Assembly: GCA_016787045.1 (NCBI GenBank)
Contig: JAEUVA010000003.1
Location: 62,001 to 126,000 of the forward strand
Direction of reading: 5' to 3'
DNA: 64,000 nt
DNA from: Chitinophagales bacterium
GTDB lineage: Bacteria; Bacteroidota; Bacteroidia; Chitinophagales; LD1
Both the position numbers and the translations under genes were made by a program. Each line of letters begins with the position of its first letter. Within the stretch, counting starts at the first letter, position 1. The notes beneath the pieces are model-generated. The model worked only from the letters and a program-made list of their open reading frames with translations, had not been told where the DNA came from and ran no database searches. This document shows, piece after piece, positions 14,790-33,615 of the stretch.

Positions 14790-14898
14790 GGCGGGCAAGG
14801 TATTTAAGGTGCTCTTCTAATTAGTGATAAACATAATTTTTTATTAAAACATTTTGACGACACACAATTTATGTTTTCTTTTGTTGCAAAAGAATGCC

Positions 14899-17800
14899 AT
14901 GAAAACACACACCAACATTCTATCCCCCCACTTTATTATTAATATTATTAATTTGTGTCTTCGCCTCAGCGCATGCACAAAATGTACCAGAAGTGGATTT
15001 TAATAATTATTACCCATCCACACAACGCCCCGATGGCACCACGCAAACGGCAGTCAATTCGGGCGAGGATTGGTTTTATGATCTAAAGTATGCTACCGAA
15101 AATGGGAAACCGTACGGTTATATATGTGCCGGCTACTCCACATATCCGCAGTTAACCGGCACCACCGGCTGTGGAAATATTGGTCTAGGGGGTTACGATC
15201 CGGACGATTTGGATATACCCGGTACTTGGAATCACAGAGCACCACATTGTAAGTTGGCTTTTGTGAATATGCAAGGCCAGATGGAGTGGTACTACAATTA
15301 TCCGGTAGTCAATGGCAAGGTGGCAGATAACGGTAGGTTCTATGCTGTGTTACAAAATCCAGATGAGTCATATATCGCCTGTGGGGTAACCCGATTTGTA
15401 CAGGGTGTAGCATACAATCCAACACCCCAAAACCCGGGCGGCTTATCACTAAATTGTGTATATGACAATGAAAACAATATTGTAGCCACACGCAAGGCAT
15501 TTGTAGTGAAAACAGATGTAGAAGGGAACTTACTATGGCAATATTACTACGGTATAGATGATTTAATACCCGGTGCCAGCAGTTCCAATGGTGTGTTTTA
15601 TGCCGTAACACCAAATGTAAGTAACGGTAGTTTTTTACTGACCGGCACTTACAACAAAATGATGTTTGTGGTGGAGATAAACGCCAACGGGCAAGTAATG
15701 AGTAAGTCACTCAGAACCGGATTGAACGGTTATTCCTCGCCAATTGACTACATTCGCCCTCGTGCGATTATACATGACCCAGCTACTAACAATATTTTTG
15801 TGGTAGGGTACATAAAAGCTCAAGACCAAACCACGGTTCACCCCGATACCTTGGGACGCTACAAAAGAACGATAGGGAAAGGCAGTAGTTTTGTGGTGAA
15901 ATTAGACGCCAACTATAACCAAGTAGGTAACGGTATATACAAGTCAACAAGCTTATCTGCACAGTATTGGTTTGAGGATGGCAATACTTCCACTTACGCA
16001 TTCATCAACAATTTTGCGCAAAGTATGTGTTGGTTCAATACTACTACAAACCCAAAAACTTTTTTAGTCAGCTTTTTGGCCGATGCAGCAATAGATGCTG
16101 TTAATTCTGAAAATGGATACGGTTACGGCACTGGCGTGGTGGAGTGTTACAACACAAATTTATCAATGCTCAATGCAGCAAGCATAGGTACTGTACGTGC
16201 ATTTGACCTGCAAGTAGGGGTAGCTAAAACCTCAGATGGTGGTTTTGCAGTGGTTTCCACGAAGCATGTTACTCAACTGACCGATTGCACACACCCATTT
16301 TCCCCTTATATGATCAACACCTGTACTTATCAGGGCACAGTTTACAACGGAAGGTACAGTAAGCAACATTGGAATTCAGATGCATACATTTCCAAGTATT
16401 CTTCTGCATTTGTGAAACTATGGGAGAAAACCATTTCAGAAAATACACCTCCTACCAACTGGGGGGGCTACAATCCTCCAACAAATTATGGAAACATTGG
16501 CGACCCGCGTTTGCAAGGAGACCTTAAGCGAGAGGAGTGTGTGTACAAGATTATTGAAACTCCTTTCGATGCTGGATTGGTGGTCTGCGGTAATAATAGC
16601 AACAATTTGGATGATGATTTACTCATAAAACTTCACTCTAATTGTCAGAAATTGCTCACTTTTAGTGGAGCCGACATCAATACAGACCTAAACATCATAA
16701 CCAATACCACACGGAATACCTCTCGTAAAGTAAGCGGAGATATTCGAATAAAACCGGGTGCTACGCTGACCATAAATGGTAGTACCACCGTCATTCAGTT
16801 TACTGATACGCGGCAAGTGGGCAAACAAGTTCACCTGATAGTTGAGCAGGGAGGCAAGTTAGTACTTGCAGGAGGCGCAAAACTCACCGGCATTACTACC
16901 TGCCCAAACAGCACTTGGGAAGGAATACAGGTTTGGGGCAATGGCAACCTATCGCAACTACCCGAAAGCAATCAAGGGGTAGTTGAAGTAAATAATGGTA
17001 CCATTGAAAATGCACGGATTGGAATAGTTGCCGGCTTAATGAACTACACTTACAATGTACAGTCCCAGATAGACTACTCTTTACCCATGACACCTATTTA
17101 TGGCTTTTTGGGTGGTGGCATTGTTAAGTGCTCTAATGCCACTTTTACCAATTGCGGTACCGATGTGCGAATGCACCCTTATGCCTACTTTAGCAGCCCG
17201 GGTGTTGAGGTGGCAAATCGCAGTTTTTTCACTACCAGCAATTTTATCACCAACAATTCATTTTTAGTCAACAACCATCTGGCGCAGCATATTTTCCTCA
17301 ATGGTGTTGGCGGTATCAAGATAAATGGGTGCAAATTTGAAAACAACCGCACCAACATAACCGAAACAGAGGAGATGGGCTACGGCATATACTCTGTCGA
17401 TGCCGGCTATCAAGTATTGCCGCAATGCACCGCCTACAGCGGCTCTACATGTGTAGGTGAAGTGCGCAGCAAGTTTAAAAATTTGGAGTATGGTGTAAGA
17501 GCAACAAGGATAAGCAGCACTCGTACTTTTACAGTAGATAAATCTGATTTTGACGGAAGCATTATTGCAATCAAGAATGAAGGTATTAGCAATATGACCG
17601 TTCAAAACTGCACACTTATAATTGGCAACAGTCCTGTTGCTTTGAGTACTAATACAGGAGTATTTATAGAAGGCAACTGTACTAACTATACAGTAAGAAA
17701 TAACGCATTTAACAGAGCAGCTATTACCAATGGCGTTTCTGTTAATTATGGCGTTAATGTATCAAACACAGGAACATCTGATACAAGAGTAGAGAAGAAC

Positions 17801-19366
17801 AACTATAATCAGTTAAGTGTTTCCAATTCTTCCGCCTACATCAATAGAAGTAGCAATGGTATAACAGGATTACAATTCCTTTGCAACACCTATGCACAGA
17901 CAACCTTGCTTGACCAAGTGGCTTTCCTCAACAATAGTAGCAGTACTGATGGCATACGTTATAGCCAAGGCACAGTAACAATAGCAGCAGGTAATAAATT
18001 CACTTTCCCTCCTCCAACTTTTGGAACAGCGGGTCATTTATGGAGTATGCCAAGTCCTACTGTAACTTATTTCTACGGCAATGGAACAAACGAATTCCCA
18101 ACTAATGTTTCAACCAATGTTCAACGTACGCCAACAAATCAACCAAGCCAATGTTCAACAGGTGGTGGTGGCGGTGGTATGATGGCTCAAGGTGGAGGAT
18201 TAACACAACAGGAACGCTCTGCTTTAGAGATTGAGTTTGCAAGCAACAATCAGAGCTACAATAATTATGTGCAACAACTTCAACTATTAAAAGATGGCGG
18301 CAATAGTCAGCTATTGCAAAACGAAATTGCACTCACTCTAAGTTCCGAAGCAGCCGCATTGAGAACAAAATTGTTGGGTGAATCTCCATATCTAAGCGAA
18401 GCAGCTTTAAAAGAACTTTCTGACAAATCTGGCGTATTGCCAGACGCTTTAATTTTTGAAATACTTGCAGCAAACCCTGACGAGTTAAAAAATGATGCCC
18501 TATTTGAATACTTAGAACAGAAAAACAACCCTCTCCCTCAATGGATGCTGGATATTCTAAAACAAGCCAAAGGAACTATCACTGCTCGTACATTGCTCGA
18601 AGCGGGTATCATGTATTACAAAGAAAAAGCAGAATCAGCAGCTTTTGAAATAATAAAAGGAATACTTGCTGACGAAAACGGTGTAAACAACAATGACCTT
18701 CGCGGTTGGCTTGGCAATCTAAATAGCAAAGAAGCCGACTATGAAATTGTTTCTAATTACTACGAAACCGGTAATTACAATGCGGCACTTTCTTTTTTAA
18801 ACTCTATTCCTCAATTACGCGATTTAAGTAATGATGAATTGGCTGAACATGACTTATTAAATTCAGTATATCAAATAATTTCCTCTGCCTCTGCCAATTC
18901 GAGAAGTATTGACAGTTTAAATACAGAACAAGTAGCATTGCTCACCGAAATTGCAGATGCAAAACCGTGTAAGGCAATGGTCATGGCAAACGCTATTCTT
19001 CGAACTTATTACGGTAGAAAATTCGACACCTATCCTTTTATTCACGAAGAGTTTCAGACAAGTCAATTGCGTTCTGCAAAATATGAGGGCAAAGCATACA
19101 CAAACCCTGCAGACCGGCAAGAAGTAAAAGTGTATCCTAACCCGGCTAAAGACATGTTAATTTTCGATTACCACGTATTTAAACTTTCAGGTATGGTTAC
19201 GATAACTATCTATGATGTTACTGGCAAGAAAATGATGGAAGAAAACTTGACTAACCAGTTAGGGCAATCAATTATTGATACACAACACCTGCCTAATGGC
19301 ATGTATAACTACACAATAACTTCTTCCAACTTTAGCAAGTCAGGAAACTTTACGGTTTTTCACTAA
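14899..19366 (+). CDS. Giant T9SS cargo protein, frame broken at a C6 tract in the signal peptide
   Basis: The natural start is ATG 14899, which reads MKTHTNILSP and then leaves frame at six C residues (14924-14929). The long open frame continues in the other register through a perfect signal peptide (LLLILLICVFASAHA, then QNVPEV). Five C residues would join both parts into one protein of about 1488 residues. Without the join only an internal GTG at 14993 is available, and that start would lose the signal peptide. Downstream are a propeller-like half (to about residue 560), a right-handed beta-helix-like section with many Asn-rich turns, a helical region, and a C-terminal T9SS sorting domain (VKVYPNPAKDM ... 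LPNGMYNYTI). Function is unknown; an adhesin or surface protein is plausible. Confidence 0.8.
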
Positions 19367-32620: not shown

Positions 32621-33267
32621 TTTGATGATTAACAGCATATTGATTTGCTAACTCTATGTACATAGGACAAACCAGTACTTGCGTTGGCATAAGGATCGTA
32701 TAAGAATATTTGTCAAGTATTTTGTTTCTTCAATTTTGTTTGTTTTATATTTGTATTTCAGATAATAAAAGTGAGAATTCTAATATTATGAAACGCGAAA
32801 TTATCCCCCCCCTCTTTTTTCGGATTTTATTATTATTTAATTTGTATTCATAACTTTGCCTACATCTGTTGCAGAGTTAGTGAAGCTCACATACTAAATT
32901 TTCTTAACTCGCACTTTTTTTACTATAGATGTCCAACAGAATTTAAAGACACTAGTTTATACTGTCATGTAAATCTTTATGATACATGCTCTTTGGATGT
33001 ATAGCTAATGAGCAAGAAGACTAACTAATGCGCCTTGCACAGCACCATATCAGTTTGTAGTAAGCGTATAAAGTAAACTCAAAATTTGTGCAACTAAATT
33101 TACATTTTATGTGCTAATGGGATGTGTTCCCGTTAGTTCATAGGATTTATCAACGGTGCTTGCCAAAGTAGCACTGTGGGTTAATTAGACTCCCCCTCAA
33201 TTAAATGAGTCATCTCGGAAGCCGAAAAGAGATTTATTATAAGAGTATGCAAACAACAATGTAAAAT
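32621..33267 (+). other. AT-rich gap with C8 tract and small ORFs
   Basis: No confident gene lies in these 647 bases. A short ORF from ATG 32788 reads MKREIIPPLFFRILLLF, a signal-peptide-like start, and stops after 21 codons. It crosses a C8 run (32805-32812). With seven Cs a different frame would stay open for about 70 codons, to about 33004. Also present are a perfect palindrome CTATGTACATAG (32654-32665) and a TTAATT/AATTAA inverted repeat around 33181-33204. The rest looks non-coding or decayed. Confidence 0.6.
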
Positions 33268-33615
33268 ATGAAACGGGTAATAGAAACAGCTGTATTGCTA
33301 ATATTTTGTGTACAATCGTTTAATTGCTTTGCCATTTATGAACGGTTTACGTCTAATGGGGGGCCAAATGGATACAACTATGTATCAAAAGAAGTTTCTG
33401 GCGATAGAACATGTATTCAATGTTATGACCCGGGTTTTGTATCTTGTGTGTTTATGGTTGAAAATGGCAATCAACAAGAGGCAGATTTGGCCATTATTGC
33501 CGCACAAAAAATAGCACAAGGTGTCTTGACTGGGCGAATTGTAAATAATCGTTACACCTGTGAATGGGTATCTCGGGCAAGTGATGGCTACAATTCTACA
33601 ATTATTGTTTACTAA
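33268..33615 (+). CDS. Small secreted NGGP-motif protein, copy 1
   Basis: The 115-residue protein has a signal peptide (MKRVIETAVLLIFCVQSFNCFA) and a short mature domain with SNGGPNGYNY, two near Cys residues (TCIQCYDPGFVSC), LTGRI and CEWVS. The adjacent gene encodes a clear paralog with the same spaced motifs (NGGPxGY, C-x-DPG, LTGRI, EW, STI). I do not recognise the family. Disulfide-stabilised extracellular or periplasmic small proteins are likely. Base composition is AT-rich. Confidence 0.75.
   Translation: MKRVIETAVLLIFCVQSFNCFAIYERFTSNGGPNGYNYVSKEVSGDRTCIQCYDPGFVSCVFMVENGNQQEADLAIIAAQKIAQGVLTGRIVNNRYTCEWVSRASDGYNSTIIVY

Follow-up and report, generated by a model that had tools for sequence, protein, structure and literature searches.

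An out-of-frame T9SS cargo gene with a C6 run ahead of its signal peptide core, and a candidate class of similarly built surface protein genes across its order

The window, i.e., the whole 64,000-nucleotide stretch analyzed, comes from a 3.62 Mb genome (51 contigs, 99.6% complete) in which 150 T9SS sorting domains are found, as fits Bacteroidota membership, and it holds a 1,478-codon frame for a secreted protein that lies, as frame translation of the assembly shows, in a different register from the ATG at 14899 (Table 1). The long frame reads PPTLLLILLICVFASAHAQNVPEVDF at its start and runs through PTLLLILLICVFASAHA, followed by QN, which is an evident signal peptide, and its translation from 14903 onward offers no in-frame start before the cleavage site. 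An earlier note on this DNA had described the peptide MKTHTNILSP read from ATG 14899, the C6 run and, in another frame open for more than 1450 codons, a signal peptide core with an AHA site, all of which hold, including the coordinates given for the run; its statement that 14899 is the only ATG was wrong, as another one, at 14894, lies in the long frame itself. That upstream ATG was set aside as a start, since it stops at once, and readthrough of the TGA at 14900 was weighed and likewise set aside.

Table 1. Features of the window gene and its start region (positions are those of the window).
Feature	Position	Strand	Remarks
ATG-CCA-TGA mini-ORF, in the long frame	14894..14902	+	TGA (14900-14902) overlaps the ATG at 14899
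Start ORF as assembled, MKTHTNILSPHFIINIINLCLRLSACTKCTRSGF	14899..15003	+	34 codons, then stop
(AC)4, alternative frame-shift place	14905..14912	+	read by eye
C6 tract	14924..14929	+	longest homopolymer between ATG 14899 and the signal peptide core
Signal peptide hydrophobic core and AHA cleavage site, TLLLILLICVFASAHA, then Q	14930..14977	+	long frame
1,478-codon T9SS cargo frame	14930..19366	+	stop 19364-19366; open since 14903
Residues 588-1470, aligned to homologues in G024, G006 and G041	16691..19339	+	29-33% identity, in frame
T9SS type A C-terminal sorting domain (PF18962, TIGR04183)	19130..19339	+	Pfam E 1e-11; TIGR04183 match

The identification of the product as a T9SS protein, proposed earlier, is confirmed by its C-terminal sorting domain, which also matches a solved sorting domain (8glj, E 6e-6). 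Like other T9SS type A cargo, the protein combines this domain with a Sec-type signal peptide in the long frame; unlike them, it has its start codon out of frame as assembled, so that the signal peptide is not readable from a start codon. The sorting domain, the in-frame homologues and the absence of a C/G run of six or more from the first 75 nt of all the 131 intact T9SS genes described below indicate that this frame is a genuine gene and goes beyond chance. The N-terminal part has no match in 17 other genomes of the same genus, the 5' region is single copy in its own genome, and scanning genome contigs for the protein returned only a weak match, to the C-terminal part. The closest homologue, in genome G024, has an ordinary in-frame start (MKKILLIVGTCIFMMHAMAQ) and no C/G run, so homologues do not share the run as a conserved shift site. 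In G041, the homologue (L005) has a G8 in the corresponding position and lacks an in-frame start, which is weak support, as just 84 contig bases precede it, with no ATG among them in any frame. An Rfam search gave no match, and a sigma-70 promoter and terminator scan found nothing, the sigma-70 consensus being unsuited to Bacteroidota.

As to where the frame was broken, the earlier proposal that one C fewer would restore the full-length frame stands, whereas the placement of the shift at C6 does not follow from it: between 14902 and 14943 there are about 40 positions at which loss of a single base would rejoin the two frames, and a gain of two bases, i.e., an extra AC unit in (AC)4 (read by eye), would do the same, meaning that the sequence alone does not place the shift at the run. 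C6 is the likeliest place for the sole reason that it is the longest run in the interval. No second lesion is seen in the remainder of the 1,478 codons.

How unusual the run is can be judged from 131 T9SS genes of the same genome that have a clear ATG and signal peptide, and were thus chosen as intact. Within their first 75 nt there is one C5, located past the core, and none of the 131 has a C/G run of six or more there, while the next 300 nt of the same genes contain four such runs; C6 is therefore unusual here and the gene carrying it is the broken one, which, with the 131 being preselected as intact, is an association and not a cause. All 67 C/G runs of seven or more in the genome were located and inspected. 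One of them, the G9 at C49:160415, follows an ATG that opens MKPALLSR and precedes the signal peptide core (KSLKIILYFFILVQLKVNPVLSQA) of a protein whose 1,413-codon frame encodes ice-binding (PF11999), PKD and DUF11 domains; this gene is OFF, i.e., out of frame with no in-frame start. Another, a 13-base G run at C47:72770, lies directly past the signal peptide region of a T9SS gene that has 1,654 codons in its frame and is ON. Runs of 10-14 also occur between genes. Three further T9SS cargo genes (C6:90368, C16:82 and C21:37499) are broken by in-frame stops or shifts away from any C/G run, indicating that ordinary decay among cargo genes does occur in this genome.

Some other tracts of the genome and of related ones are recorded here in their own right. 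The window itself has, within 32789-32850, a C8 (32805-32812) right behind ATGAAACGCGAAATTAT (MKREII) and followed by a hydrophobic stretch, the longest frame there being about 70 codons, hence a remnant or a small protein, adjoining small secreted ORFs at 33269 and 33630. Three intergenic C10-C14 tracts (L034, L035 and L147, at C6:129907, C10:32335 and C35:5880) have a common conserved leader of about 140 nt with the sequence GTTGACATATACAA.ATACCTGCTTTG..., which has no Rfam match, has the look of a promoter or leader that is repeated and carries a C run, and in one instance ends 103 nt upstream of the ATG of a secreted protein; a second shared leader, AATAAGAAAAC.ATTCGTAC.CTCGTGTACCTAAAACACTAAGCC, stands ahead of C10 and C8 tracts (L077 and L055, at C21:34420 and C21:161188). 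A C12 (L036:3975-3986) lies 78 nt upstream of a non-surface gene, for an aromatic amino acid lyase (PF00221, E 6e-184). Among G12-G14 runs inside long genes, one of the same genome (L033:437-450) is in frame, and those at about 1998 of L208 (G015, a repeat protein) and about 2002 of L185 (G008) are frame-breaking. In 40 stretches from the same genus, long C/G runs are mainly intergenic or gene-internal; one genome of the same-genus set, G002, appears contaminated.

Across the order, 399 genomes were searched for ATGAAA followed after 0-30 nt by a C or G run, with the reversed pattern as the control. ATGAAA with C10 or more within 30 nt is present in 34 of the 399 genomes versus 10 with the reversed pattern, and ATGAAA with C8 in 95 versus about 60; the 51 matches to C8 or more, against 2 reversed ones, come from nine genomes picked for having matches and are not a fair enrichment. 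No clear excess is seen for ATGAAA with G8 (86 genomes versus about 79 in the control), so the claim of a class rests on C tracts. The loci retrieved were filtered for an N-region that is open, at least 100 codons of frame past the tract and a strongly hydrophobic segment, which left 24 genes with C9-C15 and three with C8, all combining a signal peptide with a long frame; the C8 genes are ON (3/3), whereas those with C9-C15 are OFF in 17 of 24 cases and ON in seven, and the 17 OFF genes all lack an ATG in the long frame ahead of the core. The 17:7 split is that expected of random length, and choosing the longest of three frames yields 2:1 for unrelated tracts too, so the ratio alone is not evidence; what supports the class is that starts are missing, that signal peptides are present and that ATGAAA is in excess. 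The products include T9SS cargo (L331, and L275, whose sorting-domain match falls short of the curated cut-off), a subtilase (L312), M12-type metallopeptidases (L322 and, weakly, L324) and lipoprotein-like proteins bearing no Pfam name (L270, L311 and L288). Paralogues within one genome share their N-region and differ in run length: in G148, MKTQNFYLES with C13 (L317) is OFF and MKTQKFYVDS with C8 (L332) is ON, so that the state differs too, and in G361, MKFNYHL with C11 (L269) and MKFN with C9 (L326) are both OFF. Genes of one layout, then, are found in both the ON and the OFF register in related genomes.

What these genes resemble most are the G/C slippage systems of Campylobacter, Helicobacter and Neisseria, in which a G/C run in the 5' end of a surface protein gene sets, by its length, the frame of the start codon. 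The window gene has a run sited where its length sets the reading frame, and it is an otherwise intact gene in the OFF state (1,478 open codons and a sorting domain); it departs from those systems in that its run is of six, below the cut-off of seven or more G/C given for slippage-driven switching (PMC6321876), and in that its host is a T9SS-bearing member of Bacteroidota known here from one assembly. The switching described for Bacteroidota in a review is DNA inversion, including the phase variation that invertases drive at SusC/SusD and capsule genes of Bacteroides (PMC11868660); those systems are found in the same phylum and likewise target surface proteins and lipoproteins, but they invert DNA segments, whereas the loci here carry homopolymers.

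The explanation that we prefer, with a confidence that is evenly balanced, is that the assembled sequence represents a real OFF (null) allele of a T9SS surface protein gene, made by slippage, a slow or decayed member of its class and not an active fast switch. Strand slippage would have added one base, most simply in the C run between the ATG and the signal peptide core, and ribosomes starting at ATG 14899 would halt after 34 codons. The layout of MK with a short N-region, a C/G run and a signal peptide core would constitute a recurrent start-proximal, contingency-like class in the order, whose slippage would toggle the export of surface proteins and lipoproteins, and with a run of six bases the return to ON would be rare, making the window gene a slow or decayed member. 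We infer both the slippage origin of this allele, with its reversibility, and real switching of the related genes. Since C6 is below seven, the window locus most probably holds a real OFF allele that would seldom revert, and fast switching there is not supported; phase variation, which the earlier note had raised for this gene, finds support as an architecture in the genome and the order, and is countered at the locus itself by the short run and by the three C8 cases being ON. Those same points, together with an indel that is not to be pinned to C6, the decay of cargo genes elsewhere in the genome and the single assembly, speak against the OFF-allele reading as well.

Of the other readings, a sequencing or assembly error, with one base overcalled and the gene intact, has the merit that a single base in a single homopolymer accounts for everything, the remaining codons being clean. 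However, among clear C/G runs of 7-8 that fall within genes of this assembly, 37 out of 38 are read through in frame (the lone exception, C8:25973, is a possible break signature), which makes miscalls at such runs rare, and Nanopore-type errors usually shorten runs; the base error put forward earlier is thus unlikely. An ordinary recent pseudogene, with a fixed frameshift that is perhaps outside the C run and does not switch, would agree with the many positions able to hold the shift, with the other T9SS genes broken at places lacking C/G runs and with a C6 too short for fast slippage, but the rest of the frame has no second lesion, and the lack of such a run in the first 75 nt of any intact T9SS gene ties the break to the run, leaving this reading improbable.

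Programmed frameshifting, also suggested earlier, would here be a +1 shift at CCC-C among the first codons and yield a regulated amount of the full-length protein; the tract reads TCC-CCC-CAC in the start frame, and proline tRNA is known to slip by +1 at CCC-C in other bacteria, but with the G024 homologue having a normal in-frame signal peptide and no tract, the shift site is not conserved, and we consider this very improbable. Translation from a non-ATG codon of the long frame is hardly credible: the first common start, GTG 14993, is past the cleavage site, so that the signal peptide needed by T9SS cargo would be lost, and upstream of it there are just ATA/ATT codons within the hydrophobic core.

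Beyond the locus, it is quite probable that the class taken by itself, with the window gene left out, has its export switched by C-run slippage in the N-region of the signal peptide; that the window gene is a slow, short-tract member of a set extending across the order, made up of genes for T9SS cargo, lipoproteins and secreted peptidases with a slipping N-region C run, is a doubtful proposition, suggested by its layout. In the open-access literature, no paper was found that deals with phase variation by homopolymers in T9SS cargo or in the signal peptides of Bacteroidota, nor a description of a homopolymer phasome in that phylum. Sequencing data that already exist allow a direct test of the idea, since they give the tract lengths. 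Should the class prove real, automatic annotation would be dropping the start and the signal peptide of many surface proteins in the order, and its bacteria would share the repeat-slippage bet-hedging that is best known from pathogens.
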